This document shows positions 3,546 through 41,948 of a stretch of 64,000 nt of DNA, piece after piece. The position numbers were made by a program, and so were the translations under genes. The number at the start of each line of letters is the position of its first letter. Position 1 is the stretch's first letter. The notes under the pieces are model-generated. The model worked only from the letters and a program-made list of their open reading frames with translations, ran no database searches and was not told where the DNA came from. Source of the DNA: Mytilus galloprovincialis (lineage: Eukaryota; Mollusca; Bivalvia; Mytilida; Mytilidae); contig NC_134841.1 in assembly GCF_965363235.1 (NCBI RefSeq), forward strand, positions 61,029,078-61,093,077. The letters are read 5' to 3'.

Positions 3546-4097
3546 TCAAAAGACAGTATCAAGAGGGAAATTTTTATTGATGTTTTTCCTCATTTTTGTT
3601 GAGTCTGCGATTAACTGCAAAATTAGGCAAGACACTGGGTTCCACGGAACCCTTACGAATTTTTCTTAATTTTGATAATTTTAACAGAGCTCAGATCAAA
3701 TAAAATGAACACTGACTATACATGTACATTTTAGAATTGATTTAGTTTTGCAAAATGTTATTTAAATGTGTTGCACAAAACCATCCATTAAAGAAAGAAT
3801 GTGGCATTTCACAGAAATTTGGACCTGTACACAAGGCCACTTACTGGACTTGAGAACAAAACCAACTGAATATTGTTAATGCTGTGAAAATATTAACCAA
3901 GTTTAACAAAACAACCTTTGTATGACATATATATGCCATAGTACTGTTACACCATGTTTGTCTTTTCATTAAAAAGAAAGGCAATATGAAATTGTAATTA
4001 AAATTGTTATTAAAATTACAATAGTTTTTGTTAATACAATGTTTATCACATACCAAGTGTTTAGAAGTCTATAACAATTATGAGAAATATGTTTTTC

Positions 4098-5795: not shown

Positions 5796-6058
5796 TTTGT
5801 TGTACAAATTATTCTATGTTACTTTGTTGTGTTTGTAATACATAACGTATGTGTAAAAAGTGAGATAATATTTAAATACCCAAGGTTTGAAATGCAGATA
5901 GATCAATAATTCGATATATTCTTTAATGGCATTATTTTTAGTTTTCCTGGTAAAGGTAGTAGATAACTATTCAAATGACAGTTTCAACATTGGAATCAAT
6001 AAACTGTATAGGTAGATAATTTTATAACCTATTGAAAATATGTTTAAAAAGAGTGTAT

Positions 6059-13100: not shown

Positions 13101-16100
13101 TATGTGACGTCATTTTTCATTTTTTGATGCTCTGTTTTACTAATTCAAATGACGTCATTTTTTCGTCATTTTTCAGTTTCAAATAGGACGTCACTTGGCG
13201 TAGAGGTTTAAACGTATTCGGATGTGTCTACTTTTGTGTTTCAAATGTCTGGTTATGTAAATGTATTTCAGTTGTTTCCTGTAATTAGTTAATACTTCAG
13301 CTTTATCATGTACATCTTTTGAATATTCATTTTATTAAATTTACTGTTTGCAAAAGTATAAATTACTCTAAATTATAGGGATTTTCTGGTAACTTAACAG
13401 AAAACCCTTGCCGTTTTTGGCACAACCTTTTTGATCTTTTGGTCCTCGATGCTGTTCAACTTTGTACTCGTTTCGGCTTTCAAACTTTTGTATCTGTGCG
13501 TCACACATAGGTCTTGTGTGGACAAAATACACTTCTGGCGTATTAAAATTTTGAACTTGTTGCCTTTTGTTGGCTGTTGTTCGTGTGATTCTTTGTCAAT
13601 TGTGTTCTCCAATTTATTTATATTGTAGTCCTGTGTTGTCATTTTGATGTTATATTTCACATGGCCATAAAAGTGCGAGGTTTGGCATGCCACAAAACCA
13701 GGTTCAACCCACCATTTTTTCCTTTAAAAATGCCCTGTACCAAGTCAGGAATATGGTCATTGTTATATTATAGTTCGTTTCTGTGTGTATTACATTATAA
13801 CGTTGTGTCGTTTGTTTTCTCTTATTTTTGAGTGTAAATTCACATTGCGATAAGACGTGTCACGGTACTTGTCTATCCCAAATTCATGTATTTGGTTTTG
13901 ATGTTATATATATATGTTATATTTGTTATTCTCGTGGGATTTTGTCTATATGTGTTACATTTTAGTGTTATGTCGTTGTTCTCCTCTTATATTTAATGCG
14001 TTTCCCTCGGTTTTAGTTTGTTATCCCGATTTTGTTTTTTGTCCATGGATTTATGAGTTTTGAACAGCGGTATACTACTGTTGCCTTTATTTTTCAGGTA
14101 TAATGCCCCTGAATTGATGATTTTAAAGAAATTTTGCAGGTTTTGGTTATTATCTTGAATATTATTATAGATACAGATAAACTGTTAATAGCAAAAATGT
14201 TAAGCAAAGTAAGATCTACAAATAAGTCAATTTGACCAAAATTGTCAATTGACCCCTTAAGGAGTTATTGCCCTTTAAAGACTTTTTTCACAATTTGTTC
14301 ACCATGTTGACTTACTTTAAAAAATCTTCTCCTTTGAAACTGCTGTATCAATTTCAGCCAAACTTAGGCTAAATGAGTTTCAGAGTATCTAGTATAAATT
14401 TTATATTTCATTTCCTTGTATGTCAGAAACATAGCTCCTATGGCTAAAATAAAACATAGGAGAAAATGATTTTTTTTTTTTGCTTTTGAAGAAAATAGGA
14501 CGATTCAAAGAACATTTAAATAAATTGAAAAGCCAAAATAATCATTGATGAGAGATTTAACCAAAAAAATTAAGGTGAGCGATTCAGGCTCTTGAGAGCC
14601 TCTTGTTTTAAGGCAGTTTCTGACTAAATTTTGTTTTCATTCACAGTTATTTATCATAACCTGATGTATTACAATCTATACAAATATTATCACAAAAGTT
14701 TTGTCTTAGTAAGTAAGAGCTCATTGAATGAGCTTTCAAATAAATCAGACTGCAAATTATTAATGCAAGTCCCTCTGGTATCTTTCACCCTCCTTTTCAT
14801 CTTTCAGGCCTTACAAAAAAAAGTTAAAATCATTAGCAGAGAGTATTTTCAAAAGACATTTAGCAACATAATATTTTCTTTACATGAATGAAGGAAACAA
14901 ACACAAAAAAATATGTACTTAGGATCTGAATATCGAAATTGTCCTACACATTTAGAAAAATTGTCATGACAAGATTTTTTTCAGCAGCACTTTGAGATAA
15001 ATTGCTAAAAAGGGAGATAATCCTGCACTGAATGTTAGAAATAAAAGAATGTATTCATACAATTAATACTCTCCCTCGAAAATTGGTCCAAACTAAAAAC
15101 ACTATACACAGGGCTTAATAAGAGGCAAGTCATAAAAAAGGCTTGGTTTGCTTGCAGTTACTTATTTTTTTCTGTGTGATACCCAAATACAACCCTGGCT
15201 TTACACTACTGCTGGTGGACGTTTCGTCCCCGAGGGTATCACCAGCCCAGTAGTCAGCACTTCGGTGTTGACATGAATATCAATTATATGGTCATTTTTA
15301 TAAATTTTCTGTTTACAAAACTTTGAATTTTTCGAAAAACTAAGGATTTTCTTACCCCAGGAGTAGATTACCTTAGCCATATTCATATTTGGCACAACTT
15401 TTAGGAATTTTTGATCCTCCATGTTCTTGAACTTTGTATTTATTTGGCTTTTTAACTATTTTGATCTGAGCGTCACTGATGAGTTTTTTTGTAGACGAAA
15501 CGCGCGTCTGGCGTATAAAATTATAATCCTGGTACTTTTGATAACTATTTACACTTAATAGAAACAATATACTGTAAATGATGTACTAAGCAGAATGTGT
15601 TGTACTGAGAAGTTACTATGAGCACCTTGGTACATATTTATAAGTATTGGACTAATATATGACTATAGAACTCCACCTGTAATTGTGCCAAAGACATATC
15701 TTAGTAGTACTAATACAGCAACTTATAATTAAAATACTTATTTTTTAGTTCTTCAAGAAGTGATATAATAGAAAATGGAGATTTCAAATATAACGTTATA
15801 GAAATAATAATACCGAAATACATGTCAATTTTATTAAAATTAGAAATTACTTTAAATTGAGGAATTATTGCGAGGTTTTTATTAAGGAAGCTCGCTTGTC
15901 ATGTTTTAAAATTTTGGTCAGATTTTCGGAATCCTCTGATTTTATCCATTTGTATGCCTTAACAAATTTTGAACGGTGACCCCCATTTTTCTTTTTATAA
16001 TTATTTTATATGTATAATGATAAGCTGTCTGTTAAAGTCTTATGAAATTTTAATTATTTTTTAATAGTTTTTGAGGACTTAAACTTGTCAATAATAAAGC

Positions 16101-19100: not shown

Positions 19101-22100
19101 CATTCATAACTTTATAAATGCATAAAAGGTCATCCGTTATTGCCACTAATTTCCAAAGCAGTGGGAGGGTTAAATCAACAAAATATTTAATGTACACTTT
19201 TACGTTCTAGAATAGATGTATATTTTTGTCAAAGGGAAGTTTTATTCTATTGAAATGGGTTGATTCTTACTTTGTGGGAAAAAAGAAGGTTAAAAAAAGT
19301 GTATATATATTAATTGCTTGTGTACTAAAGAAAAACAGTTGAATATTATGGATGACCTTAAAGGCAATATACATTAAAACAAGAATTTGTCCATAGTACA
19401 CATATGCCCCACTCGCACTATCATTTTCTGTGTTTAATGCACCTTGAAATTGGGGTAAAAACTCTAATTTGGTATTTAAATTAGAAAGATCATATCACAG
19501 GGAACATGTATACTAAGTTTCAAGTTGATTGGACTTCAACTTCATCAAAAACTACCTTGACCAAAAACTTTAACCTGAAATTTGCACTATCATTTTCTAT
19601 GTTCAGTGAACCGTGAAATTTGGGTCAAAACACTAATTTGGCATTAAAATTAGAAAGATCATATCATAGGGCACATGTGTACTGAGTTTCAAGTTGATTG
19701 GACTTCAATTCATCAAAAACTACCTTGACCAAAAACTTTAACCTGAAGCAGGACGAATGGACGGAAGGACAGACCAAAGAACAGACCGAAGGACAGACGG
19801 ACGAAAACGAACGAATGGACGCACAGACCTGAAAACATAATGCCCCTCTACTATCATAGGTGGGGCATAAAAATGAAAGAAAATGCTTATGCATCATAAC
19901 CTATGAATTTGAACCAATAATTCCATGGAATGTTTATTAAAAAGGAAATAGTATGTACTATATATTATTTGTCACAAACTTATTGTTCAGAGTTTATATG
20001 ACAAGAAATATTTGAATATATATTAAATTTTCTTTTTCAGGCTTACTTATCAAACAGATTCTGTCCATTGCTGATGATACTCAAGGCCTTGACAATATAG
20101 TGAATAATACAGTGGGTGTGTTGTTCTACAGTACTCCTCATAGGGGCTCCAGTTTGGCACACCTGTCTAATCAGGCCAGTCTTATTGTAGCACCTACTGT
20201 GGAAGTCAAAGAAATGGGTAGAGGTATTGAATTAGTGATTAGATTATATCATTATATTGAAGCAGCTCATTTTAAAGCTTAGATTTTTACTATACTCCGT
20301 GTAAAATATATATTTTTGCTATGCCCAGTGTTTGATTTATAAAAACATACCTGTTCATGTTTTTGTCAACTTTTTAAATCAATATCTGGTTTTTTTTCAT
20401 CTTCTGGAAAAACGTATTCAGGTAGGCTTATTGTCCAAAAGTTTGGAAAGGCAGAAATACAAATAATTATAATGCATATAATCCAATAAAGACTTAAGTA
20501 TTTGAGATAACTTAAAAGTTGGTGCCCTTTTATACTTTCATGTAAATGTTTGTATTATGTAAATAATACAAATATTAAAATGCTGGATTTGATTTGACAT
20601 TGGATATTTGTTTGATTCCCTTAATTGCACAAAAAACAGATAACTTTAACAAAAATGTTTTACATTTTGAATATAAATGATGCATATAAATTCATCTTTT
20701 ATTAAAAAAAAAAATCAAAAACTATCAGTAAAAATTATGTACAAAGTGGAGCAACTCAATGATTATTTCATTTATTTGAAATTTTATAGGAACTCTTCAT
20801 AATTATACCCTTGCATTTATACAGATTCACCAATGTTAAGAAGGTTGCATAAAGATTTCCAACAGCTTGTTATGGAACATGGAATTCCCTGCCTAAGTTT
20901 TGGAGAATTAGAGAAAACCCAAATAAGGACAACAAAACTCAAAATGCTCATAGTACCACCAGAGTCTAGCGGTAAGAAAATCATTTAAAATGCACTTGTC
21001 ATAGACCAGACACAATATGGTATCCCTGTTTGTCTATTTGAAATGTTCGAAATACTATGGATTTTCTACCCCAGAAATAAATAAAATTGAGAATGGAAAT
21101 GGGGAATATGACAAAGAGACAACAACCCGACCATAGAAAAAAAAACCAACAGCAGAAGGTCACCAACAGGTCTTCAATGTAGCGGGAAATTCCCACACCC
21201 GGAGGCGTCCTTCAGCTGGCCCCTAAACAAATATATGCTAGTTCAGTGATAATGAACGCCATACTAATTTCCAAATTGTACACAAGAAACTAAAACTAAA
21301 AATAATACAAGACTAACAAAGGCCAGAGGCTCCTGACTTGGGACAGGCGCAAAAATGCGGCGGGGTTAAACATGTTTGTGAGATCTCAACCCTCCCCCTA
21401 TACCTCTAGCCAATGTAGAAAAGTAAACGCATAACAATACGCACATTAAAATTCAGTTCATAACCAATGTCATGCCAACAACTGGTTTTTGAATAAATGT
21501 GTTTAGTTCCGATGCAAAATCCCTATAAGTGAATCAATATTAACGCCAAAATATGCAATCTTTAATGACCTGACAACAGTATCGTAACTATATCCCTTCT
21601 TAATAAGTCTATTCAAAGGTTTTGTTAGTTTTTGAGGTGAATACTGACACCTTTGTGCTTTATAAAGAATATTTCCATAAAAAATTGGATGTGAAATACC
21701 TAAACGTATAAGAAGTCTGCATGTTGAGCTATATTTACGAATGATGTCCTTATACCGATGATAAAATTTAGTGAATGTTTTGACTAGTTTGTGATATCGA
21801 AAACCCTAGTGTAATAATTTTTCAGTAATACATAAATTTCTCTCGTTAAAATCTAAAACATTGTTACATACACGAGCGAATCGTACAAGTTGAGATATTT
21901 AAACACCGTAAGATGGTGACAAGGGAACGTCACCATCTAAAAATGGATAACTAACGATAGGGAATGAAAAATCATCTCTTTTATTATAAATTTTAGTATT
22001 CAGCTTTCCCTTAGTGATATAGATATCAAGATCGAGGAAAGGGCAGTGGTCATTGTTAGTATTAACTTTATTTAAAGAAAGTTCAACAGGATAAATTTCT

Positions 22101-24383
22101 TTGATATACATACTGAAGTCGTCATTATTGAGAGCCAAAATATCATCCAAATATCTAAAAGTATTATTAAATTTGTTTATCAGATGTTGTTTCGATGTGT
22201 CTTTGCTTATTTTTGTCATAAATTGTAACTCATAGCAATACAAAAACAGGTCCGCAATAAGTGGTTCACAGTTAGTCTCCATTGGAATTCCGATAATCTG
22301 ACGATATACGGAATCCCCAAAGCGAACAAAAATGTTATCTAGTAAAAATTCAAGGGCAAACATAGTATCAAAGCATGTCCAATTGACATAGTTTTTTTTG
22401 TTTATTGCTACTAAAAAATGACCTAAAAGAGTTTGAACATAAATATTCACATTCTGACTTTTTAAATGCCCATTTAATTAGGTGTGTGAATTTTTTCTTA
22501 ATGAGAATGTGAGGCAATGTGGTATACAGGGTAGAAAAATCAAAACTTTGAACAGATTCAAAATCACCAATATAAGCATGCAATTTATCAAGTACTTCCA
22601 ACAAGTTCTTGACACTCCAAAAGTAATTAATTCCACTATTTTCGAAGGCCTTATTTGAACAATTTATTATCAGGTTTTTAATTGTACCAAGTGTGCTTGT
22701 AAGAAGAATAGACAATTTAGTAGTGGAACAATGGCTTGAAGACGAAATAAATCTATATTTGTAAGGTGTTTTGTGTAGCTTCGGAAGCCAGTACATAGTT
22801 GGGACCTTCATTGTATTTGGCTCTGCTTGTAAAGCGGTAGCTAAAAGTTTATGTTTGTTACAGATGTCGTTTTCTGAAAATGGAGTCATTTGGAATGTTG
22901 GTGAATTGGTGATTTCTTTTTTCAGAACCTCAATGTAAAATTTACGTCAAACAATAATAATATTATTAGCAGCTTTATCGGCCAGGACAAAACAAATTTC
23001 TTGGCTAGTTCTTTTAGTTTATGTTTGATACGAGAAATAGGTTTTTTGTGGCTATTGTTAATAGTAAAATGTTCTTTAAAATGTTGAATACGTATATCAA
23101 CTATCTTCATTACTGAATTAAAAAAAGAGTCCAAAGATTTTTTGTCAGCTTTTTCCAGAATATATTTGCTATATTTAGCAAAACCTTGAATTAATAATGA
23201 TCTGTCCTCAATGACTCCTTCAAATTGTATTTTATTTTGCCTTCCGCCTTTTTTTTATTCATCTATATGTCCATCTACCCAGCATTTTACATTTGTTATT
23301 TTTTAGATCAGTTAAAGGTTAGCAACCTTTTGAACATTTTATAATTTTTCATGAGTTTTATGACTCTCAGTGTTAAAATTTAGGCAAGTTTTACTAGTTT
23401 GGCACTGCTCAAGTTGAGTATGATTAATTTTCTTTTAACTTTTATATTTTTGGTAAGATATATTGTGGATTCACTTTTATTCATTGGAGACGAATTTTCG
23501 TGGGTATTGGCGAGCTACGAATCTAAATGTTCAACAAATTACAAATTCTATATAGAATTGGAGACATTATCAAAACCAGGAAATCAAATATCCACGAAAA
23601 TGCAAGTTTTCCTCAATCCACAAAAAAGTGAGTTACTTGAAATTTTGAAAAAAAATGGAATTTTTCATACCAGAGCTATTTGACCTCAACCGTCAAATTA
23701 TAGGAATCTTTTATAAGCCTAAGTATGTCTTATTGAAAGTTTTCTGCAGAGTCATTTTTCTGACCAGTGATTGAAGCCTTCTCCAATATTCTTGTTCTTT
23801 TAAACAATTTAAATATAGGTACGATGAGCATATCTAGCAAAGCTGTTTATTGATAACCTGAGACTTTTTTAGTATATTTGTCAAGTTTATGTCCATATTT
23901 TTCACATGTGCTTGAGTAGTATACCCATTATATCTTAAAATTAATAAAGCAGCAATTTTTTGGCTCAATTAAATAAAAAAATTTGAAGGCTGAATTAAGT
24001 CAGGTGGAAAAATTAATTAATTTATTGAAGAATCCAATCACAACTGAGGCATACAAATCATAAAAGTAAAATATATATAAAACAAGTAAACTTAAATTAA
24101 ATAAAGTTATAATTCTTTGAATAGGTAATAAATTATAATATCTTTGTTTTGTATGAAAACCTGTTCTATAAACTTTTAGATAAATCTTTGAACGTTTTTT
24201 GTAGATCCTGGTATTGGAGAATTCCATGCTATGAAAACCAGTCATCTGAACATCTGTAAACCTTGGGACAGAGACTCAGAACTTTACACAGAAACACTTA
24301 AATTTATACGACGATGTCTACCTCAGGGCAGGATAGAAAACATCCTCAGAGCTGGAATGACATTCAAAGACTCTGATAGATAA
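7056..24383 (+). CDS. SERAC1: SERAC1, 3' part of gene (eleven exons, about 510 residues, to the stop)
   Basis: SERAC1 is a serine-active-site, alpha/beta-hydrolase-fold protein of mitochondria-ER contacts, needed for phosphatidylglycerol/cardiolipin remodelling; human loss causes MEGDEL syndrome. Eleven exons splice in frame with GT-AG introns: 7056-7174, 7476-7595, 8458-8571, 8906-9068, 10595-10745, 16508-16664, 17118-17218, 18859-18956, 20041-20223, 20825-20971 and 24205-24383. The product aligns end to end with the remembered human protein: [16 protein letters not shown] early, then an armadillo-like region, [28 protein letters not shown], the nucleophile elbow [15 protein letters not shown], and HLNICKP carrying the expected catalytic His. 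Human SERAC1 is about 650 residues, so the N-terminal exons are missing from view. Oddities are the repeated acceptor before exon 5 here and a partial copy of the GHSMGG exon. Confidence 0.93.
7476..7595 (+). CDS. SERAC1: SERAC1 exon
   Basis: The acceptor is TTTACAG and the donor GAGAGG|GTAATT, phase 0. It reads [18 protein letters not shown] then [16 protein letters not shown], matching the human region with DQLRQLLASLPQTELDEC in layout. It belongs to the helical N-terminal half. Confidence 0.88.
8458..8571 (+). CDS. SERAC1: SERAC1 exon
   Basis: The acceptor is GTTTCAG and the donor GCA|GTAAGA, phase 0. It reads [20 protein letters not shown] then [18 protein letters not shown]; human has WCFGGNGLPYAESFGEVPS at the same place. 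Confidence 0.9.
8906..9068 (+). CDS. SERAC1: SERAC1 exon
   Basis: The acceptor is TTTTAG and the donor AGCAG|GTACAT. It reads [17 protein letters not shown] and later [20 protein letters not shown], an armadillo-like helical repeat. It ends one base into a Gly codon that exon 10595-10745 completes. Confidence 0.92.
9280..9550 (+). repeat. Dispersed repeat with ATGCCCCAC-type inverted ends
   Basis: It begins ATGCCCACCTACGATAGTAG, runs through a TTCGTTCG-rich microsatellite (CGTTCGTTCGTCCGTTCGTT near 9340), and ends at GTGCGAGTGGGGCAT. An inverted, longer copy with an internal duplication is at 19395-19870 in another SERAC1 intron. The ends are roughly inverted (ATGCCCCAC against GTGGGGCAT). 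No coding sequence was seen. Confidence 0.6.
9779..10594 (+). repeat. 68-base tandem array copying a splice acceptor and exon start
   Basis: There are twelve 68-base units, each starting GATGGGTAACAGTTCTATCG and ending TCTTTCTAATACAG, followed by a thirteenth start at 10595 that is the true exon. Starts are exactly 68 apart from 9779. Each unit is the polypyrimidine tract and AG of the intron plus the first 50-odd bases of the SERAC1 exon. Units differ only by scattered single bases. Because 68 is not a multiple of three, entry at an upstream unit meets an in-frame TAA in the following unit (GAT GGG TAA). Only the last acceptor keeps the SERAC1 frame. Confidence 0.95.
10595..10745 (+). CDS. 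SERAC1: SERAC1 exon preceded by the acceptor array
   Basis: It reads [20 protein letters not shown] then [15 protein letters not shown] and [13 protein letters not shown], very close to the human stretch around AARILANLDRE and DGVYVLHPQYR. The acceptor is the thirteenth copy of TAATACAG. The donor is GAAAA|GTAAGT. This start is preferred because only it leaves the frame open. Confidence 0.92.
10825..10948. mobile_element. 124-base MITE with 9-base target duplication
   Basis: The inverted ends are near-perfect over about 32 bases, beginning TAGTCCAAATAATTATGACG on each side. The direct repeat ACATTGATG flanks the element at 10816-10824 and 10949-10957. Nine-base duplications fit Mutator-like elements. 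It lies in a SERAC1 intron and is non-coding. Confidence 0.75.
11021..11370. mobile_element. Large palindrome, probably a nested MITE
   Basis: From 11021 to 11159 the DNA is an imperfect palindrome: AGATTATAACATG, CTTTTCCATATTGGCCCTGG and ATCATCCC on the left are mirrored on the right, with a loop near 11085. Directly beyond, TTATCACATATTT at 11160 is answered by AAATATGTGATAA near 11350, a second inverted pair. Both are typical of fold-back non-autonomous DNA elements. Confidence 0.6.
12805..14097 (+). mobile_element. Inserted retroelement fragment, possibly a Penelope-like terminal region
   Basis: This segment splits the surrounding AGCTCACCT repeat. Its 3' part (TTTAATGCGTTTCCC, then ATGGATTTATGAGTTTTGAA and CAGCGGTATACTACTGTTGC) recurs at 27120-27440. 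In the middle is a stretch laid out like the hammerhead units: TTTGGCACAAC, a TTCAACTTTGTACT block, and a hammerhead-like core at 13498-13541. Penelope-like elements are known to carry hammerhead motifs in their terminal regions, hence the guess. No long open frame remains. Confidence 0.4.
13498..13541 (+). ncRNA. Decayed hammerhead-like sequence
   Basis: GCGTCA and CTGGCGT flank a hairpin GTC...GAC just as in the active-looking hammerheads elsewhere in the window, and surrounding text is alignable. The conserved CTGATGA and GAAA cores are not preserved, so no activity is expected. Confidence 0.4.
14607..15180. other. Nothing recognised
   Basis: AT-rich SERAC1 intron sequence with only short incidental open frames; no repeat matched inside the window. 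Confidence 0.5.
15195..15556 (+). repeat. Single hammerhead-ribozyme repeat unit
   Basis: One copy of the roughly 356-base unit found in tandem at 29137-30215. It contains CTGCTGGTGGACGTTTCGTC, a block reading TATCACCAGCCCAGTAGTC, then TTTGGCACAAC, and closes with the hammerhead and ATAATCCTGGTACTTTTGAT. It sits in the long SERAC1 intron in sense orientation. Confidence 0.85.
15470..15514 (+). ncRNA. Hammerhead ribozyme (type I, minimal stem III)
   Basis: GCGTCA pairs with TGGCGT to form stem I. CTGATGA is followed by a weak stem II (GTT with GAC, one G-U pair) and the core GAAAC. A self-complementary CGCGCG leads into the cleavage triplet GTC. The whole core is conserved. The very short stem III suggests it works best as a dimer. 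Confidence 0.75.
15557..16507. other. Intron sequence, nothing recognised
   Basis: AT-rich end of the long SERAC1 intron, with a T-rich acceptor tract just before 16508. Confidence 0.5.
16508..16664 (+). CDS. SERAC1: SERAC1 exon
   Basis: The acceptor is TTTTTTTAG and the donor CCCAAG|GTATTA. It reads [20 protein letters not shown] then [13 protein letters not shown] and TYTFCWPK. The [13 protein letters not shown] block starts the hydrolase domain and matches human [15 protein letters not shown]. Confidence 0.93.
17118..17218 (+). CDS. SERAC1: SERAC1 exon
   Basis: The acceptor is CTTTCAG and the donor GAGAA|GTATGG. It reads [20 protein letters not shown] then [14 protein letters not shown], a close match to human WLAKDCPALRIISVEYDTS. 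It is a core beta strand region of the hydrolase fold. Confidence 0.93.
17512..18000 (+). mobile_element. SINE-like dispersed repeat, subfamily 2
   Basis: It begins AAAAGAAGATGTGGTATAAT, includes GACAACTCTCCACAAGAGAC and CTAACGGCATAATTTATG, and ends with ACTTGGGACAGGCACATAC, TGGCGGGGTTAAACATGT and CCAACCCTCCCC. Related partial copies are at 25090-25240, 28860-29010, 30890-31120, 45450-45625, 51740-51800 (inverted) and 55428-55560. Non-coding. Confidence 0.65.
18859..18956 (+). CDS. SERAC1: SERAC1 exon with the catalytic serine
   Basis: The acceptor is TCTTTTAG and the donor GGGAG|GTAGGC, a weaker match to consensus than usual. It reads [20 protein letters not shown] then [18 protein letters not shown] is the GxSxG nucleophile elbow of serine hydrolases; human has SHSMGG. 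A tandem partial copy follows immediately. Confidence 0.93.
18957..19036 (+). pseudogene. Tandem partial copy of the SERAC1 GHSMGG exon
   Basis: From 18961 the text GCATATTACAGAAGTTA repeats the exon interior 76 bases downstream of its first occurrence (18885), and runs to CATTCCATGGGAG|GTAAGC. The copy has no acceptor of its own but carries a stronger donor (GTAAGC against GTAGGC). The 76-base step is not a multiple of three, so use of the second donor would shift the frame before the next exon. Confidence 0.85.
19395..19870 (-). repeat. Inverted copy of the 9280-9550 repeat
   Basis: It reads from ATGCCCCACTCGCACTATC to ATCATAGGTGGGGCAT, with the AAAACTACCTTGACC block and a GGACGGAAGGACAGACC-type microsatellite. 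The middle part is duplicated (the ACTAATTTGGCATT and GTACTGAGTTTCAAGTTGAT blocks appear twice). Confidence 0.6.
20041..20223 (+). CDS. SERAC1: SERAC1 exon
   Basis: The acceptor is TTTTTCAG. Two donors are possible (ATGG|GTAGAG and AGAG|GTATTG); the second keeps the Asp codon with the next exon and matches human VEVKELSKDSPAL. It reads [20 protein letters not shown], then [20 protein letters not shown] and VEVKEMGR. Confidence 0.92.
20825..20971 (+). CDS. SERAC1: SERAC1 exon
   Basis: The acceptor is TACAG and the donor AGCG|GTAAGA. It reads [20 protein letters not shown] then [14 protein letters not shown] and MLIVPPESS, matching human KLHVVPVESAD at the end. Confidence 0.92.
21040..23260 (-). 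mobile_element. Penelope-like element, broken fossil copy
   Basis: Minus-strand reverse-transcriptase text is present at 21640-23140: [39 protein letters not shown] and [20 protein letters not shown], a layout seen in Penelope-like elements of bivalves. At 21040-21500 is the non-coding 3' tail, with GGAAATTCCCACACCCGGAG, ACTTGGGACAGGCGC and GGGTTAAACATGT. The coding part is broken in several places and no endonuclease domain was recognised. It lies in the last SERAC1 intron, antisense. Tails of the same family are at 56330-56690 and 57960-58240. Confidence 0.75.
23460..23630. mobile_element. MITE with TTGTGGATT inverted ends
   Basis: The left end is TTGTGGATTCACTTTTATTC and the right end, reversed, TTGTGGATTGAGGAAAAC, each followed inward by TTTTCGTGG. 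A related copy is at 58235-58435. Non-coding. Confidence 0.55.
24205..24383 (+). CDS. SERAC1: SERAC1 last coding exon
   Basis: The acceptor is TTTGTAG. It reads [20 protein letters not shown] then [20 protein letters not shown] and ends GMTFKDSDR before TAA at 24381-24383. HLNICKP is identical to the human motif and carries the presumed catalytic His. Confidence 0.93.
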
Positions 24384-25440: not shown

Positions 25441-25704
25441 TTACATTAATTTAAAAACCAATTATTATTCTATCCTTCATTTATAAGAAAGGATTTCTAT
25501 CCGTATGTAGGCTGAGCCTTCACCCTGACATGAATTATCATTGATATGGTTATATTTATAAATAAACTGTTTACAAAATTTTGAATTTTTGAAAAACTAA
25601 GGCTTTTCTACCTCAGCTGTATTTGGCATAACTTTTAGGAATTTTGGTTCTTAATGCTCTTCAACTTCGTACTTTATTTGGCCTTTTTAACTTTTTTGGA
25701 TTCG

Positions 25705-25748
25705 AGGTCACTGATGAGTCTTTTGTAGACGAAACGCGCGTCTGGCGT
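25705..25748 (+). ncRNA. Hammerhead ribozyme
   Basis: CTGATGA, stem II GTC with GAC around a TTTTGTA loop, GAAAC, CGCGCG and the cleavage triplet GTC are all present; TGGCGT follows. The upstream stem I strand (AGGTCA) is slightly off the usual GCGTCA, so stem I is weaker. Confidence 0.7.
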
Positions 25749-26051
25749 ATATACAAAATTTAGTCCGGTATCTATGATGAGTTTATTTACAACCACTGGG
25801 TCGATGCCACTGCTGGTGGAGATTTATTTCCCCGAGGGTATCACCAGCCAAGTAGTCAGCACTTTTTGTGCTGACATGAATTATCATTGATATGGTTATA
25901 TTTATAAATTAACTGTTTACAAAATTTTGAATTTTTGAAAAACTAAGGCTTTTCTACCTCAGCTGTATTTGGCATAACTTTTAGGAATTTTGGTTCTTAA
26001 TGCTCTTCAACTTCGTACTTTATTTGGCCTTTTTAACTTTTTTGAATTCGA

Positions 26052-26095
26052 GCGTCACTGATGAGTCTTTTGTAGACGAAACGCGCGTCTGGCGT
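26052..26095 (+). ncRNA. Hammerhead ribozyme
   Basis: GCGTCA pairs with TGGCGT in stem I; CTGATGA, stem II (GTC with GAC), GAAAC, CGCGCG and GTC follow in order. All core positions look intact. Confidence 0.8.
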
Positions 26096-26249
26096 ATATA
26101 CAAAATTTAGTCCTGGTATCTATGATGAGTTTATACACTCCCTTTGTTTTGATATAATTGATTTAAACAATAAAATCTATGAACTGAATTGAAATGTATT
26201 CTACTTTTCTTTTGAATCAAATTTTCTAATAAACAAATCAAATTAGTAA

Positions 26250-26300
26250 TCAAAGGTACCAGGATTATAATTTAGTACGCCAGACACGCCTTTGGTAATT
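26250..26300 (-). repeat. Inverted scrap of a hammerhead unit
   Basis: GGTACCAGGATTATAATTTA and GTACGCCAGAC match, in reverse, the 3' end of the hammerhead units. The core is missing. Confidence 0.5.
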
Positions 26301-28690: not shown

Positions 28691-29431
28691 CAACTATATT
28701 CGCAGTTACCAATTAAATACAGTCTAGGACTTGAATTGTTTCTATTATAAAGTAATAAGAAGCTGAGATATAATTACCAGTGTCACAAATAACCTCCAGA
28801 GACCAATGATGTGGATGGAAAGCATCTTTAGTTACTGTCAATGGCATTTAACAATCAGAAAAACCGATGCCTTATAGAAATCTATGAAATGCCCTTATAT
28901 GACAAATGTAAAACAATTGAAGCGACCTGATATATGTAAAAAATAGACCTACAGCCACTGAATTACAGGCTCCTGACTTGGGATAGAAACATACAGGATG
29001 TACAAATGTCTTGTAAACATATGAAAGTCACTTATCGATTTTTTTTTTTTTTTGTCATTTGAAAAGGAACTCACGGGGTCATAAGTTTGAATTTTGATCA
29101 TTTGATCAGAAATTAGATAAAAAAAAAGAGAAACACGTACTTTTGATAACTATTTACACCACTGGGTCGATGCCACTGCTGGTGGACGTTTCGTCCCCGA
29201 GGGTATCACCAGCCCAGTAGTCCGCACTTCGGTGTTGACATGAATATCAATTATATGGTCATTTTTATAAATTTTCTGTTTACAAAACTTTGAATTTTTC
29301 GAAAAACTAAGGATGTTCTTACCCCAGGAGAAGATTACCTTAGCCGTATTTGGCACAACTTTTTGGAATTCTGGGTCCTCAATGCTCTTCAACTTTGTAT
29401 TTATTTGGCTTTTTTAACTATTTAGATCTGA

Positions 29432-29475
29432 GCGTCACTGATGAGTCTTATGTAGACGAAACGCGCGTCTGGCGT
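29432..29475 (+). ncRNA. Hammerhead ribozyme, array unit 1
   Basis: GCGTCA with TGGCGT forms stem I; CTGATGA, GTC with GAC around TTATGTA, GAAAC, CGCGCG and GTC follow. The core is complete, and an ATTT with AAAT pairing may extend stem I beyond an internal loop. Confidence 0.85.
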
Positions 29476-29787
29476 ATAAAATTATAATCCTGGTACTTTT
29501 GATAACTATTTACACCACTGGGTCGATGCCACTGCTGGTGGAAGTTTCGTCCCCGAGGGTATCACCAGCCCAGTAGTCAGCACTTCGGTGTTGACATTAA
29601 TATCAATTATATGGTCATTTTTATAAATTTTCTGTTTACAAAACTTTGAATTTTTCGAAAAACGAAGGATTTTCTTACCCCAGAAGTAGATTACCTTAGC
29701 CGTATTTGGCACAACTTTTTGGAATTTTGGGTCCTCAATGCTCTTCAACTTTGTATTTATTTGGCTTTTTTAACTATTTTGATCTGA

Positions 29788-29831
29788 GCGTCACTGATGA
29801 GTCTTATGTAGACAAAACGCGCGTCTGGCGT
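29788..29831 (+). ncRNA. Hammerhead ribozyme, array unit 2 (core variant)
   Basis: Same layout as its neighbours, but the conserved GAAA core reads AAAA, which should greatly reduce or abolish self-cleavage. Stems are otherwise the same. Confidence 0.7.
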
Positions 29832-30143
29832 ATAAAATTATACTCCTGGTACTTTTGATAACTATTTACACCACTGGGTCGATGCCACTGCTGGTGGACG
29901 TTTCGTCCCCGAGGGTATCACCAGCCAAGTAGTCAGCACTTCGGTGTTGACATGAATATCAATTATATGGTCATTTTTATAAATTTTCTGTTTACAAAAC
30001 TTTGAATTTTTCGAAAAACTAAGGATTTTCTTACCCCAGGAGTAGATTAACTTAGCCGTATTTGGCACAACATTTTGGAATTTTGGGTCCTCAATGCTCT
30101 TCAACTTTGTATTTATTTGGCTTTTTTAACTATTTTGATCTGA

Positions 30144-30187
30144 GCGTCACTGATGAGTCTTATGCAGACGAAACGCGCGTCTGGCGT
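30144..30187 (+). ncRNA. Hammerhead ribozyme, array unit 3
   Basis: Complete core: GCGTCA with TGGCGT, CTGATGA, stem II GTC with GAC around TTATGCA, GAAAC, CGCGCG and GTC. Confidence 0.85.
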
Positions 30188-30469
30188 ATAAAATTATAAT
30201 CCTGGTACTTTTGATATCTAATTATGTACAAGAAAGAATTAATCAAGTTTATAAATAATATATTTATAAATGTATTGCACAATTACCCTCTACTAAAGGA
30301 AAAATGTGGTATTTCATCGAAAATGACAGCTTTACTCAAGGCCATTAACAAATGAAGAAAAAAGCAACTTAATATTTTAACTCTGCTATGAAAATATTTA
30401 CCAAGTTTAACAAAACAACCTTTGTTTGACATATATATGCTATAGTAAGTACTGAGTGATATGATAACC

Positions 30470-31610: not shown

Positions 31611-31853
31611 TGTTTATTCACTGTAATTTATTGTTTGCCACATCAACTTCAAACACAAATACTCGATATTGATACACATAATAAATGTGTAAAGGAAATC
31701 TTGATTTTCCTACCAAAAAATTGTGTATTTCTGACAGATGAGATTTTTCTAACAACAGACCCAAAATGGACCTCAGTCAGTCAGGCAAATGCATGGTGGT
31801 ACAAGCTTAAAGACCAGAAAGCTGTGGCACTGAAAAAGTTTCCTATAGAATGA
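31611..31853 (+). pseudogene. Unidentified coding-like fragment, open to a stop
   Basis: The frame is open from 31611 to TGA at 31851-31853. It reads QTQILDIDTHNKCVKEILIF, LPKNCVFLTDEIFLTTDPKW and SQANAWWYKLKDQKAVALKK, a composition that looks like real protein. I do not recognise it. No splice acceptor sits at its start, so it is likely a gene fragment carried in by the repeat or an old retrocopy end. The preceding 31190-31400 also has a long open stretch on the same strand in another frame. The left duplicate has a frame-shifted copy. Confidence 0.35.
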
Positions 31854-31974
31854 ATGACTTTCAAAGTATGAATTTCTTTTTCTTTTTTGTCGAGCCTTTG
31901 ACTTTAGTCGAAAAAGCGAGACTAAGCAATCCTACATTCCGTTGTCGTCTGCATCGTTGTCGGCAGCGTCCACA

Positions 31975-32600
31975 AATATTCACTCTGTGATTAAAGTTTT
32001 TGAAATTTTAATATCTTTCTTAAACTGTATGCTGGATTTCCACCAAACGTGGACAGAAGCTTGTTTATGATCATAAAAAGTATCCAGAAGTAAATTTTGT
32101 AAAATAAAAATTCCATTTTTTCCGTATTTTACCTATAAATGGACTGAGTTTTTCTGCGAGGAAACATTACATTCACTCTGTGGTTAAAGTTTTTAAAATT
32201 TTAATAACTTTCATAAACTATCTTTGATTTGTACCAAACTTGGACAGAAGCTTGTTTATGATCATAAGATAGTAGCAAGAAGAAAATTTTGTAAAAATAA
32301 ATTTCCACTTTTCCGTGTTTTACTTATAAATAGAATTAGTTTTTTGCCAGAAGCAAAACATTCACTCTGTAGTTTAAGTTTTTTTAATTTTTATAATGTT
32401 CTTAAACTATCCTTGAATTCTACCAAACTTGGACAAAAGCTTGTTTCTGATCATAAGTTATTATTCAGAAGTAAATTTTGTAAAAAACAAATTCCACTTT
32501 TTCCGTATTTTACTTATAAATAGACTTAGATTTTCTTCCAGTTAACATTACATACAATCTGCAGTTAAAATTATAAAACATTTATTAGATTCATAAGCTA
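31975..32600 (+). repeat. Four degenerate 185-base tandem units (right duplicate)
   Basis: Same units as at 2885-3545, in the same order and with few differences, within the high-identity part of the duplication. Confidence 0.6.
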
Positions 32601-33186
32601 TCCTGGATTTTACCAAACTTGGAAGCTTCTATCAATCAAAAGACAGTATCAAGAGGGAAATTTTTATTGATGTTTTTCCTCATTTTTGTTGTGTCTGCGA
32701 TTAACTGCAAAATTAGGCAAGACACTGGGTTCCACGGAACCCTTACGAATTTTTCTTAATTTTGATAATTTTAACAGAGCTCAGATCAAATAAAATCAAC
32801 ACTGACTATACATGTACATTTTAGAATTGATTTAGTTTTGCAAAATGTTATTTAAATGTATTGCACAAAACCATCCATTAAAGAAAGAATGTGGCATTTC
32901 ACAGAAATTTGGACCTGTACACAAGGCCACTTACTGGACTTGAGAACAAAACCAACTGAATATTGTTAATGCTGTGAAAATATTAACCAAGTTTAACAAA
33001 ACAACCTTTGTTTGACATATATATGCCATAGTACTGTTACACCATGTTAGTCTTTTCATTAAAAAGAAAGGCAATATGAAATTGTAATTAAAATTGTTAT
33101 TAAAATTACAATAGTTTTGTTAATACAATGTTTATCACATATCAAGTGTTTAGAAGTCTATAACAATTATGAGAAACATGTTTTTC

Positions 33187-34899
33187 TTAACATCCCGAAC
33201 AAGTCACTTCATAAATCTTTGCATCCTTGACTGTACTACTTGCTTGTCTACCACATCCTATATAGAGTTGTCCTGTTGGAGTGAATGCAAGGGAGTATGG
33301 ATAATATATTCCTATGTCTGCAGTGTTATACCATGACACTAGGTTTCCCTTACTATCTAGAATGTGTATTATGTCAGTATCCAAATCAGTCACTATGACA
33401 TTATCTCTTGGTGTTGTCACTATTCTTGCTGGTTTAAATGGTATGATCTTGTTTATTTCAGGATGGCCTTTATATGAGTTGATAACATCACTACCTGTTG
33501 TCAAAACTACCACTCTACCTTCTTCACCATGATCACGATCTACTACATGTATATTCCCATTACTGGTACTGGTTATACTCCTTGGATAGGTAAATATAGG
33601 TTGATTATGTTTATCATGTTCATACACAGTCTCATGGTCTCCCTTCTCATTCATTACAAACACAGCTCTTCCTAGTTTATCATGATAACCTCCTACTATA
33701 ACTTTATTACCACTGGTAATGTAGATGCATGTAGGACCTAAAGGGCTCACATTATATACGGTGTTAGATATGTTACCATTGGTTTTATTGAGTTGTTGTA
33801 GTCTGGATAGTCTGGATGTACCATTAGAAAGAAGGATGTTATTAGATGTGGTTATAACTATACCATAGACCTTCATGTTAAATTTAGATTTTAGAACTTT
33901 GAGTTCTTTGCCTGCAGGTATTGCATTTGCCATACAAGAATCTAAATATGAATATATCCAAACTGAATTGTCAACACAAGGAACAATATCGGTTATTGCA
34001 GAAAGTTTTGTTTGATATTCTTGAATAATGTTAAATGCAACAGTTAATTCCTCTGGACTCTCTTCACTTTGTAGCACCCCAATATTAGATTGAGTTATCT
34101 CCCTTGGTACAAAATTAGGTATGGAATTGTAGGTTGATTGTGTTTTTGGTACTGGTACCTCCATGGATTTTTCCATTCTTCTTACATCAGAAAAAAAGTT
34201 TGCGACTTCTGTGGATTTTATTAAACCCTCGACTTCAGTGTTTTTCTCATTAGAATATTTCATTGATTTTGATACAATACTCAGGTCTGTGTCAATTGAT
34301 TTGAAAATAGTTTTCAGGTTTTCATCAACTTCATCTTTTAATTCTTTAATGTATTTGTCAATGTCACTTTTCATCACTTTTCCATGATTCAGAATATCTT
34401 GGATAACTCTGCTGCATTTTGCATTTTCAGCATTCTTACGCTTGATCAATTGTTCTTTTATTGCGACTGCTTTTTTTACTTCCATTTGAATTTTACTTTG
34501 TCCATTTTTCAGTCTGTCTTTTTTCATATGATAGGCTTCACTGATTTTGATTAAGTCATTTGCATGTTTCTTATGAACTTTGGACACACATGTCGGACAT
34601 ACCAGACTGTCACAAATCTTACAAAAAAGACAGCAAGATTGTGTAGTATGGTCTGGACATTTGATATTTGTAAAATCCAATTCTCCACTGTGTAAACCAA
34701 TGTCTTTTATACTTATGACCTTATGGTCTTGTGCATTTTTAATTCTAAGATGTCTCCCATCTTTACACTTATCACATATTAGCAGTTCACAGTCAATGCA
34801 TTTCCACTTGATGTTTTTCTCAGTATCGCATAGATGACAGTTAATAGGTATCTGACTTTTTTTAACCGATTTTGAAAACGCCATGATTGTGTTGTCCAA
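33187..34899 (-). CDS. B-box/coiled-coil/NHL-like protein, intact single-exon gene
   Basis: The product is 570 residues, or 565 from the conserved Met of MAFSKS (residue 6), which I prefer because both paralogues share it. B-box 1 uses C21, C24, C34, C37, C42, C45, H50 and H59. B-box 2 uses C81, H84, C93, C96, C101, C104, H109 and H112. A Lys/Glu-rich coiled coil spans about 115-260. The C-terminal 290 residues have NHL-like repeats (GIVITTSNNILLSNG, RSITSTSNGNIHVVD, SLAFTPTGQLYIGC). There is no RING, so E3 ligase activity is not expected by itself; such proteins may act as adaptors. The family (TRIM-like) is hugely expanded in bivalves. A near-identical, stop-containing paralogue lies at 4098-5795, but the two upstream regions differ strongly, so the promoters may act differently. 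Confidence 0.9.
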   Translation of the reverse strand: MDNTIMAFSKSVKKSQIPINCHLCDTEKNIKWKCIDCELLICDKCKDGRHLRIKNAQDHKVISIKDIGLHSGELDFTNIKCPDHTTQSCCLFCKICDSLVCPTCVSKVHKKHANDLIKISEAYHMKKDRLKNGQSKIQMEVKKAVAIKEQLIKRKNAENAKCSRVIQDILNHGKVMKSDIDKYIKELKDEVDENLKTIFKSIDTDLSIVSKSMKYSNEKNTEVEGLIKSTEVANFFSDVRRMEKSMEVPVPKTQSTYNSIPNFVPREITQSNIGVLQSEESPEELTVAFNIIQEYQTKLSAITDIVPCVDNSVWIYSYLDSCMANAIPAGKELKVLKSKFNMKVYGIVITTSNNILLSNGTSRLSRLQQLNKTNGNISNTVYNVSPLGPTCIYITSGNKVIVGGYHDKLGRAVFVMNEKGDHETVYEHDKHNQPIFTYPRSITSTSNGNIHVVDRDHGEEGRVVVLTTGSDVINSYKGHPEINKIIPFKPARIVTTPRDNVIVTDLDTDIIHILDSKGNLVSWYNTADIGIYYPYSLAFTPTGQLYIGCGRQASSTVKDAKIYEVTCSGC

Positions 34900-35176
34900 A
34901 TTATTCTATGTTACTTTGTTGTATAATATTGGTAATATATAACTTGTGCTTAAAAACGAAGATAATATTTAAAAACACAAAGTTTTATGCGCAGGTAACT
35001 CAACAACTTGATATATTCTTTCGCCGTATTAAATTAAGTTAATAGATAACGTTTTTGTTGAATTTTACCTAATGTACACATGATGTAAATTATAAAGTGT
35101 ATATATAGATAATATTACACCCTATAGAAAATATGTTTGAAAAGAGTGCACAAGAGAGACACAAGTGGATATAATT

Positions 35177-39299: not shown

Positions 39300-41345
39300 T
39301 GCCATTGCAAGAAATAGTTTCATAGTTTATTTCAAACCAAAAGCAATACAGCTTATAGGTATATCATAAATATGTACATGTATATCATAACAGAACATTT
39401 TAAATACAATAGGAGGCAAGACTACATAGTATAAATCATTCAGAAGATTGTCATGAAAATTTTATATCTGTGGCGTATTTCAGATATTTTCCTAAATTAG
39501 ATAATTCCGAAACATTCTTTGTTGACAATAATTGAACTAATTTAAAAACAGATGCATTTGTATAATAATACCTTTTTATATACATTTTTCTAATATTTTC
39601 ATATTTTGGACATTTTAAAATAAAATGAAACTCATCCTCGATGTCACCCTGGTTACATAAGATACATAATCTTTCATTTTTTGCTTTTTTAATGAATCTA
39701 CCATATTCAATATTCAATTTGTGAGAACACAGTCTATACTTAGTTAAAAATCTAATACATTGTGGACTTAAATTTTTTGTCAAATAAAACTGCAATTGAA
39801 CATTATCCACAAGGTGTTTATAGATAGTACATTTTGATGATGAATCGAAAAACATATTTCTTTCTTGAAGAAAATGGTCAATAAGCCTTTGTTTGAATAA
39901 AATAATCAATGCTTCTTCGCATACAACATTCTGTGCATACCACACATGTCCAAAACCTAGGCTAAGTAACATACATTTAACATTATTAACCCATGATGAC
40001 TTATTTCCTGATTCACACTCATCATACATATCATTATATATAGCATTAAGAATACAATTTCTCGTCCGTAATAGACGAATCCAATATTTTAATATTTTTA
40101 CTTTCCGAGATATCAATAAAGGAAATCTTCCCAACTCAGAATAAACCATTGCGGTAGCAGTGGATTTTTTAACAGTCAAAATATTTTTACAAAATTCTAT
40201 ATGAAGTTTTTCTATATCAGATGCATTATGAAAACCCCATATTTCACTTCCATATAATAAAACAGGTGATACATAGACATCAAATAAATACAATTTTGTT
40301 TGTACATTTAAACACATATGTTTTATTTTACCATACAACATTGATAAACATTTTCTGCCTTTGGCAGCAATATTTAACTGAGTTTGATTAAACTTTGCAT
40401 TGTAATATAACATAACACCCAGATACAAATAATGATCAGCAACTTCAATAATTTCGCCATTATAAAACCATTTTTCATCGCTTCGTAATTTACCACCGTT
40501 TCTGAAAACAACCACCTTAGTTTTGCTTGTGTTTACAATAAGTTTCCACTTTTTACAATAATTATGTAGTGAATTCAACATATTTTGCAACCCATCAATA
40601 GTTTCGGAAAATATAACAGTGTCATCTGCATACATCAATAAAAACAATGAAAGTTCTTTTATGTCTACTGGTAGACATAAGCTATTAATAAACTCATTTT
40701 CAAAATCATTTAAAAACATTGAAAATAGTATAGGTGATAATGGTTCCCCTTGCAATACTCCTTTTTCTACAGAAAATATGTCAGAAAATTCACCTTTAAA
40801 TTTTACACAGCTCATAGAATTATCATATAAAGATTTAATAATTGAAAAAAGTTTACCACTTATACCACATTTTGCGAGCTTATAATATAAAAAATTTCTA
40901 TTCAAGTTGTCAAAAGCACTTTTATAGTCTATAAAACAACAATAAAGTTTTTTCTTCAATCCCAAATATTTAGTAATAATTGATTGTAAGGCAAAAATAG
41001 TATCAGTTGTGCCATGACCGGGTCGAAACCCAAACTGAGCATCAGTTAAAATGTCATTTTCGTTAGCCCACAATGTAAGCCTTTCATTAATAATAGTAGT
41101 AAAAAGTTTGCAGAAACAACTGCTTAGTGTTATACCTCTATAATTATCAGTAACATTTACATTATTTTTTTTATGCACAGGAATAAGTATTCCTTTACAC
41201 CACTGTTTCGGCATATATCCAGTTTCAAAAATTACATTAAACAATTGCACAATTAAAGGTACGAGAATGTCTTTAAAATGTATAAAATACTCATTTAACA
41301 AATTGTCAGCACCTGGCGATTTGTTACATTTTAACTTCAAAAAAA
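39300..41345 (-). mobile_element. LINE (non-LTR retrotransposon), 5'-truncated, inside the inverted-repeat element
   Basis: This covers the reverse-transcriptase frame plus about 150 bases of 3' sequence. The endonuclease half expected upstream is absent, as is usual for 5'-truncated LINE copies. I could not find clear target duplications, so the borders are estimates. Confidence 0.7.
39451..41340 (-). CDS. LINE reverse transcriptase (C-terminal 629 residues)
   Basis: It starts directly in the finger region (KCNKSPGADNLLNEYF). It then has FGFRPGHGTTDTIFAL, CCFIDYKSAFDNLNR with the first catalytic Asp, GVLQGEPLSPILFSMF, and LLMYADDTVIF with the YADD pair. The C-terminal part is typical of LINE proteins and ends with a C-x2-C-x9-H-x4-C zinc motif (CILCNQGDIEDEFHFILKC). 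The frame is open throughout, so the insertion is probably young. The apparent Met start is an accident of truncation. Clade not assigned. Confidence 0.88.
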   Translation of the reverse strand: MKLKCNKSPGADNLLNEYFIHFKDILVPLIVQLFNVIFETGYMPKQWCKGILIPVHKKNNVNVTDNYRGITLSSCFCKLFTTIINERLTLWANENDILTDAQFGFRPGHGTTDTIFALQSIITKYLGLKKKLYCCFIDYKSAFDNLNRNFLYYKLAKCGISGKLFSIIKSLYDNSMSCVKFKGEFSDIFSVEKGVLQGEPLSPILFSMFLNDFENEFINSLCLPVDIKELSLFLLMYADDTVIFSETIDGLQNMLNSLHNYCKKWKLIVNTSKTKVVVFRNGGKLRSDEKWFYNGEIIEVADHYLYLGVMLYYNAKFNQTQLNIAAKGRKCLSMLYGKIKHMCLNVQTKLYLFDVYVSPVLLYGSEIWGFHNASDIEKLHIEFCKNILTVKKSTATAMVYSELGRFPLLISRKVKILKYWIRLLRTRNCILNAIYNDMYDECESGNKSSWVNNVKCMLLSLGFGHVWYAQNVVCEEALIILFKQRLIDHFLQERNMFFDSSSKCTIYKHLVDNVQLQFYLTKNLSPQCIRFLTKYRLCSHKLNIEYGRFIKKAKNERLCILCNQGDIEDEFHFILKCPKYENIRKMYIKRYYYTNASVFKLVQLLSTKNVSELSNLGKYLKYATDIKFS

Positions 41346-41948
41346 TTTTACATACTTACTTTACATACAAAATAGTTTTGCTCGTTATTTTGTCATATTA
41401 AAAAAAATTCTCAACAAAATTTTCCCGTTTAAACTGTACTAGAAAAAAGTTTGGCATGTGAAACGGACGAAGACATATTCTAACAGAAGTACAAATACCA
41501 GTCCTCCCTTTTGTGTATACACATGAGAAAACATCACACATACGGTACACATTGTAGTCCGAAAAAATAAAGGACTTCATTCCTATCAAACACTTTTTTA
41601 ATTGTTTACCAGTATATTTCTTTTAGTTTTGGGTAAAATTGTAAAGGAAATAATACTACCAAGACGTCCTTCCATAAATCTTTCTTTTCTGTTCTGACTT
41701 TGAAGAAATGACTACTTTTCGCCCAATCGAAATGGTCATGAACATATTTTGTTTCATATTATTAGAATTATTTTCAATATTATCGGTCTTAAACTTGATT
41801 ATCGACACATGAAAGTTTGTCAGCATTGTCAATCTTTTTAACGTTAAAGTACCAATAGTTCGGTCACTACGCAATTAAGTTTGTCTATAACGTAGCTAAT
41901 TTTGACGGTAAAGAAACATCAATTCGATCACTTCTCTGTTACGGGCTG

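Follow-up and report, generated by a model that had tools for sequence, protein, structure and literature searches.

Tandem hammerhead arrays in Mytilus galloprovincialis as probable target-primed insertions of a non-LTR retrozyme with a fixed internal start

How a short non-coding repeat that carries a self-cleaving ribozyme comes to stand in tandem in a chromosome, and which enzyme places it there, is the question raised by an array of 356-nt units in a 64,000-nt stretch of the M. galloprovincialis genome (hereafter, the window). Animal hammerhead repeats have reportedly been known since the newt satellites of 1987, and the element itself is of an already known kind, an animal non-LTR retrozyme that matches the published description for this mussel. 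Its insertion ends across the genome are described here, and the array is probably one insertion of this non-autonomous element, target-primed on an RNA circle from a fixed internal start, with a Penelope-like enzyme as the most likely agent.

The array, its ribozymes and the retrozyme family

Tandem Repeats Finder reports a period of 356 with 3.1 copies and 96% matches at 29137-30224, which bears out the three tandem 356-base units described in an earlier note on this DNA. The retrozyme array itself occupies 29137-30220 (+), 1084 nt in all, and comprises three laps of the unit plus 16 nt. With position 1 of the unit defined as the first base 3' of the hammerhead cut, the 5' end of the array is truncated at position 24/25 and its 3' end lies at position 39, the fixed end of the family. 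The three comparable 333-nt pieces of the array show 9 or 10 base differences. The unit has a GC content of 38.3%, its longest ATG frame encodes 34 aa and its longest stop-to-stop frame 87 aa. Animal non-LTR retrozymes lack an LTR, a primer-binding site and a polypurine tract, and no LTR-like terminal repeats were seen at the array in tandem-repeat and similarity scans. The traits of animal non-LTR retrozymes, namely a type I hammerhead in each repeat, a repeat size within 150-450 bp, occurrence as dimers to large multimers, a GC content below 45% and the absence of a protein-coding frame, are all present. The identification as an animal retrozyme made in the earlier note is thus backed by the unit size, the type I hammerhead, the tandem arrays, the 38% GC, the lack of a long open reading frame and the existence of a mussel family already published with this description.

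Type I hammerheads are located at 29432-29475, 29788-29831 and 30144-30187 (all +). The first and third have an intact core, recognised also by our own descriptor, and are predicted to be cut after C29469 and C30181, while the cut site of the middle unit is C29825; these are the cleavage positions predicted in the earlier note. The covariance model check proposed there gave Rfam Hammerhead_1 matches in all three units (33, 26.5 and 33 bits, with 28900-30400 searched alone), each below the curated cut-off of 34. In the whole-window scan at this cut-off the only match (36.3 bits) was at 25705-25748, within a related copy, and the strict version of our descriptor found five matches on the two strands of the window, every one in retrozyme copies; no other minimal hammerhead was found in the 275 kb scanned. 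The hammerhead fold was not returned by plain minimum-energy folding of the array stretch, and a 75-nt hammerhead piece was no more stable than its shuffles (z 1.01).

The middle hammerhead is predicted to be inactive through the loss of the catalytic G12, which is an A at 29814 (CpG to CpA) and a G at the equivalent positions 29458 and 30170, so a core change confined to this unit had been noted correctly. Stem III, previously given as a self-complementary CGCGCG, is more precisely the 8-nt palindrome ACGCGCGU, which may also fold as two base pairs and a tetraloop. The cleavage as a dimer that had been deduced from it is not needed according to published mussel data, in which self-cleavage of a repeat cloned from the genome had a rate of about 0.1 per minute (PMC7229834).

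The family is abundant in the 1.385-Gb assembly of 331 contigs, with matches across fourteen long contigs (C1-C14). The 22-nt hammerhead core GACRAAACGCGCGTCTGGCGTA, in which position 12 may be G or A, was counted 18,821 times, against none for the same string read backwards; about 5000 type I hammerheads are reported for a M. galloprovincialis genome in PMC7229834. Apart from the array, the window holds a related copy of about 1.04 laps with the same 3' end as the array (15177-15547, +), a subfamily B copy of about 1.7 laps with a matching 3' end and the hammerhead that exceeds the Rfam cut-off (25525-26133, +), a strongly 5'-truncated 47-nt stub ending at position 39 (26244-26290, -) and an old remnant, 72% identical (13294-13550, +). 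Other repeated sequences in the window are a near-tandem duplication of a B-box/NHL-repeat gene (2568-6063 and 31656-35156, 96% identical over 3.5 kb), in which a 572-aa open frame is kept at 33187-34905 (-) and the other copy is split (4098-5813), and a minisatellite of 13 copies of a 68-bp unit with 96% matches (9767-10649).

In a sample of close copies the hammerhead core was intact in 215 of 235 hammerhead-like stretches. The compensatory stem changes on which the earlier note would have its reading depend were not seen, no pair being changed on both sides in 57 distinct hammerhead sequences, and the copies are too alike for this to be telling. The G12-to-A change of the middle unit recurs in 836 of the 18,821 genomic cores. 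None of the 85 such cores listed on C1 has a similarly changed neighbour one unit away; for intact cores, of which the first 100 on C1 include 95, the count is 31. Selection against dead ribozymes was considered as the cause and rejected, since rare CpG transitions outside the core are equally unshared with the next unit in the sampled arrays (0 of 10, with 0 of 9 for core changes and 121 of 416 for other rare non-core changes), and the pattern may be plain CpG decay.

Insertion ends and target sites

Insertion ends were mapped at 78 loci, 57 of subfamily A and 21 of subfamily B, which comprise 35, 20 and 20 loci from three similarity-search lists and three copies from the window; the two sets of 20 are mostly short arrays picked from longer lists. 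Four loci (L085, L088, L100 and L104), in which the sampled stretch stops before the 3' end, are left out of the 3'-end count, and three others (L072, L097 and L098) have only the 3' end in the sample. The 3' end is fixed in 70 of the 74 loci in which it is visible (52 of 55 in A and 18 of 19 in B), at 39 nt past the hammerhead cut in subfamily A and at 43-44 nt in subfamily B; L043, L055, L065 and L090 end elsewhere and are counted as misses. The fixed tail is CCTGGTACTTTTGATAACTA, adjoining TTTACA, and in the 52 A loci the tail up to position 39 reads GATAACTA, with divergence setting in within a few bases. These loci match the unit to 96-100% over positions 23-39 (98-100% at 33-39), where positions up to 36 served as the anchor; identity then falls to 77, 75, 60, 60, 35, 40 and 23% over positions 40-46 and is about at background beyond. 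In the window array this tail is the 39-nt segment 30182-30220 (+) between the last hammerhead cut and the 3' end of the element, and its last bases are GATATCTA.

The 5' ends behave otherwise. Those of 56 A loci fall all along the unit, in a manner not different from uniform (KS p=0.16). Among 53 A-type arrays, a set in which short arrays were in part favoured by choice, the length ranges from 0.96 to 17.4 units with a median of 2.1. The sequence GTACTTTTGATA, which the earlier note had reported on both sides of the array, is confirmed there, but it is incidental: it belongs to the unit's own sequence and borders the array twice because the truncated first lap happens to start about 14 nt before the fixed end position. 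Its interpretation as a target-site duplication or attachment site was rejected for this reason.

A further sample, drawn without regard to similarity with the unit in the window, was formed by the first 100 exact 23-nt tails on contig C1. These run on into TTTACACC in 21 of 22 inner tails, 2 of 17 3'-most tails and 3 of 61 single tails, and the fixed end is therefore a property of the family. A single exact tail was present in 61 of the 78 tail clusters on C1, in which decayed tails may hide more units. Genome-wide, the exact tail was found 4222 times, the tail with 8 downstream bases 1560 times and the tail with 9 upstream bases 2366 times, counts that lean in the expected direction and are blurred by subfamily differences. 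As to the mode of spread, which the earlier note had left open, this anatomy of the insertions points to target-primed copying from one internal start.

The flank 3' of the fixed end is similar to the bases that follow in the unit itself, TTTACA or, at greater length, UUUACACC. Beyond the first mismatch, 105 of 260 flank positions still match TTTACACC, where a fraction of 0.243 is expected and 50 control windows gave a mean of 0.256 and a maximum of 0.306; because the match persists past the first mismatch, the likeness is not merely a ragged end of the element. In subfamily B the flank begins with T, T, T and A in 17, 15, 13 and 15 of 18 loci, respectively. The same picture would be expected if the enzyme that cuts the target preferred such sites.

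Empty-site relatives spanning the junction were found for 12 of 66 loci with joined flanks, five at 82-94% identity and seven at 70-75%, the latter being left out of the sizing of duplications. In L071 and L042 the unit-like bases after the junction are already present in the unoccupied target, and the weaker relatives of L047 (74%), L056 (74%) and L048 agree. The arrays L047, L048 and L071 sit within copies of reverse-transcriptase elements, which makes empty-site relatives available, and L048 is accompanied by the apparent loss of about 90 bp of its target, a decayed reverse-transcriptase copy. For the site of the window array itself, the empty-site relative has no more than 70% identity and is too diverged to judge.

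Compared with the empty site, there is no target-site duplication at L071 (92%) and L076 (94%), one near zero at L042 (82%), one of 4-5 bp at L063 (83%) and one of 7 bp at L051 (91%), where TCTTGAA flanks both sides of the array and is single in the empty site; at L056 the duplication is about 7-9 bp. Where animal non-LTR retrozymes have target-site duplications, these exceed 4 bp. Most loci have no clear duplication, and in a looser scan 6 of 37 loci reached the 99% null score. The flanks of L039 share a 56-bp stretch, about 86% alike, which may be an old long duplication or a tandem repeat that existed before.

Template and mechanism of insertion

The fixed 3' end, the scattered 5' ends, the uniformity of young arrays and the UUUACACC-like flank bases that also occur in related empty sites are features read from the genomic sequence; from there we infer a circular template, the pairing of a primer and the class of the enzyme. 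Transcripts would be cut by the hammerheads into 356-nt units and closed into circles, a process shown elsewhere for the mussel, since circular RNAs of M. galloprovincialis retrozymes have been demonstrated, and both self-cleavage and linear and circular RNAs of unit length in tissues have been published (PMC7229834). The copying enzyme, most likely a Penelope-like reverse transcriptase, would then begin on the circle at position 39, just 5' of the exposed UUUACACC, with the cut end of the chromosome as primer, and would round the circle until it falls off, after three laps in the window and up to about seventeen elsewhere. The outcome would be one constant 3' end and random 5' ends. The more specific version, in which the cut chromosomal strand pairs with UUUACACC where it lies exposed beside the base of a hairpin, and many rounds of the circle by a Penelope-like enzyme from one start yield a whole array in a single event, with the unit set by the hammerhead and the 3' end by the start motif, has about an even chance of being right.

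The putative primer-annealing site UUUACACC occupies unit positions 40-47 (29509-29516, +, with a second copy at 29865-29872). Its 8 bases are predicted to be unpaired in the circle, with values of 0.73-0.85 in all five A circles. Of 14 distinct B circles, 12 reach at least 0.66, the exceptions being L104 (0.41) and L105 (0.51); L106 lacks the motif. A hairpin is predicted just 3' of the putative start in most A circles, at about positions 48-106 (29517-29575, +, in the array). The 191 nt round the start site were no more stable than shuffles (z -0.76). Compared as whole circles with 20 shuffles each, five A circles lie within 1.4 sd, and four B circles are 1.0 to 2.1 sd more stable.

The nature of the template can be approached through the differences between units of one array. 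Their mean is 0 in L033 (6 units), L041 (4) and L073 (2), 0.29 in L036 (7), 0.5 in L058 (12) and L046 (4), and 0.69 in L062 (17), while the same uniform arrays differ from other arrays by means of 5.7 to 9.4. Variants fixed in the full units of an array recur in its truncated first lap in 32 of 33 cases, and array-private variants in 7 of 7. Since these variants reach the truncated first lap, copying from one circle is suggested, exchange within an array being expected to homogenise its edge last. A linear template cut by the hammerhead stops before position 1 of the next unit, so that a start at position 39 would yield 39 nt only, and arrays of many laps need either a circle or an uncut multimer. 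The latter would be provided if the template were linear multimeric RNA transcribed from an array already in place, on which copying could begin at position 39 of one unit or another, with circles as a by-product. This is possible but rather doubtful. It agrees with the use of uncut RNA by a purified Penelope-like enzyme, which needs no hammerhead cleavage in vitro (PMC11167929), with the existence of mixed or alternating arrays (L035, L044 and L061), and with the presence in L033, L041 and L046 of a unit identical to one in another array, owing to which their uniformity could also stem from a uniform donor array. It sits poorly with the six of twelve arrays of at least four full units that differ by less than one base per unit pair, one of them over 17 units, and with the extension of array-private variants into the truncated first lap. 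The window array and L037, L043, L048, L057 and L082 are about as mixed inside as between arrays; in L035 (14 units) the 5' units alternate between two types (ABAB) about six sites apart, as if a dimeric circle had been copied or a duplication had occurred in place, and in L032 a three-unit block is repeated. Mixed and alternating arrays could be explained by age, dimeric circles or linear templates. In the window array, 6 of the 10 columns that differ between units 2 and 3 show variants that recur in other arrays, so that its history can be read less clearly than the history of young arrays.

Other rivals concern the enzyme or the process as a whole. Mobilisation by a LINE-type enzyme that recognises the tail, in place of a Penelope-like one, is unlikely; it would account for the fixed 3' ends and 5' truncation, which are general marks of target-primed reverse transcription, and for flanking direct matches of at least 5 bp in 14 of 51 loci (3.6 expected), and a LINE-like frame of 634 codons with an RVT_1 domain lies in the window at 39451-41355 (-). 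However, no match to the retrozyme unit was found near this frame, and the start is internal, has no poly(A) or simple-repeat end, and lies close 3' of a hammerhead and beside a hairpin, as in the assay of the Penelope-like enzyme. One fixed end, variable other ends and tandem laps are also produced by rolling-circle transposition of DNA in the manner of Helitrons or one-ended IS91 elements, and Helitrons and Helentrons insert between A and T without target-site duplication and have a 3' hairpin before their end. The fixed end CTA with a preferred following T and the insertions without duplication at L071 and L076 would suit such a process. Even so it is very unlikely here, given that just 9 of 51 loci obey the A|T flank rule, the predicted hairpin lies downstream of the element end and outside it, duplications occur at L051 (7 bp) and L056 (about 7-9 bp), and each unit contains a ribozyme. 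Hardly credible is an ordinary satellite DNA spreading by unequal exchange with hammerheads as passengers: the internally repeated blocks of L032 and L035 are of the kind that it would produce, but dispersed insertions with one fixed end, a truncated first lap and empty sites are not.

Candidate enzymes, related elements and implications

Target-primed copying of the retrozyme calls for an enzyme supplied from elsewhere. A Penelope-like frame (reverse transcriptase and GIY-YIG) is absent from the array, the longest ATG frame of which is the 34-aa one; the array is not a Penelope-like element and possibly only a client of one. Scoring of 150 of 1001 candidates gave 147 GIY-YIG matches, and frames of 781-911 codons with such matches occur, so that candidate enzymes probably exist in the genome, a GIY-YIG domain alone being no proof of a Penelope-like element. 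Among the scored matches there are about twenty GIY-YIG pairs within some 5 kb on opposite strands, nearly all minus-then-plus, with some frames of 780-911 codons. The one GIY-YIG element sampled contains no hammerhead core in the 801 bp round its ORF start, and no Penelope-like element with the retrozyme tail was found in this sample. For the dependence on Penelope-like enzymes considered in the earlier note, the support is an analogy with the behaviour of a purified enzyme; an autonomous element to match was not found.

The retrozyme tail is missing from both reverse-transcriptase remnants in the window. One of these, at 21899-22946 (-), is reverse-transcriptase-like by its motifs and has 13,880 first-look candidates genome-wide; many of the 150 scored contain a 480-codon open frame, at 96-97% identity. 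This family was rejected as the autonomous partner, as it gave no Pfam match at E 0.001 and only a chance-level one (0.15) up to E 10, and two window copies end in the unrelated CTCAATTTTA or CTCAACTTTA.

SINEs depend on a borrowed enzyme and have a fixed 3' end and 5' truncation. The mussel family shares these features with them and with other non-autonomous target-primed elements, but the mussel family stands apart in its successive laps of a single unit, a feature suggestive of a template that has no ends.

The closest relative by description is the non-LTR retrozyme of M. galloprovincialis (Cervera and de la Pena 2020, PMC7229834), with which the family shares the type I hammerhead, tandem repeats of about 350-390 bp, low GC, thousands of copies and the absence of an LTR. 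Two ribozyme families are described in PMC7229834 and two subfamilies were sampled here, compared by description and not by letters; the parts of that paper drawn on here contain no map of insertion ends. Plant LTR retrozymes are likewise non-coding, hammerhead-bearing retroelements that move through circular RNA (PMC4918200), but they have type III hammerheads, LTRs, a tRNA primer site and 4-bp duplications (PMC7761336, PMC7229834), while the mussel family has neither an LTR nor a fixed 4-bp duplication. For the mussel retrozymes a primed circle, either target-primed or primed by small RNA, has been proposed with Penelope-like elements as strong candidates (PMC7229834), and Penelope-like elements and Terminons are likewise proposed as retrozyme enzymes in PMC7761336.

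A mechanistic precedent is provided by the Penelope-like element Poseidon of the lizard Anolis carolinensis (PMC11167929). Its purified protein starts reverse transcription internally, 111-118 nt into the ORF, with the hammerhead cut at 26; the start site is in an AC-rich stem-loop, is used at AT-rich cuts and corresponds to the tails of genomic copies, and hammerhead mutants were still inserted in vitro. Poseidon shares with the mussel family a type I-like hammerhead, a tandem structure, AT-rich targets, a 'tail' on genomic copies and, on the present reading, an internal start of reverse transcription in an AC-rich stem-loop downstream of the hammerhead. In the mussel, the 3' ends of genomic copies likewise lie inside the unit beyond the hammerhead cut, at position 39 in 52 of 55 A loci. 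Unlike the lizard element, the mussel unit has no ORF, its start lies 39 nt past the cut instead of about 85-92 nt, and its flank bases match the start site, whereas the DNA cut by the lizard enzyme is not homologous to it (PMC11167929). This lack of homology and the insertion of hammerhead mutants in the lizard assay both depart from the mechanism proposed here. The mussel tail, the start just 5' of UUUACACC and the hairpin that follows fit the pattern of this enzyme, and by this comparison the Penelope-like class appears to be the best candidate.

Among the titles and abstract openings listed in a literature search there was no report of a fixed internal 3' end, 5' truncation and target match for animal retrozymes. 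In the papers drawn on here, the enzyme that inserts retrozymes is only proposed (PMC7229834, PMC7761336). This proposal becomes testable through a start site that is near base-exact, a short stretch that is a candidate for the primer site, and insertions in their thousands; any candidate enzyme must start at position 39 of the circle. If the mechanism set out here is true, these arrays would show that in nature a single RNA circle can be copied into a genome as tandem DNA, and it may explain the birth of some satellite DNA.
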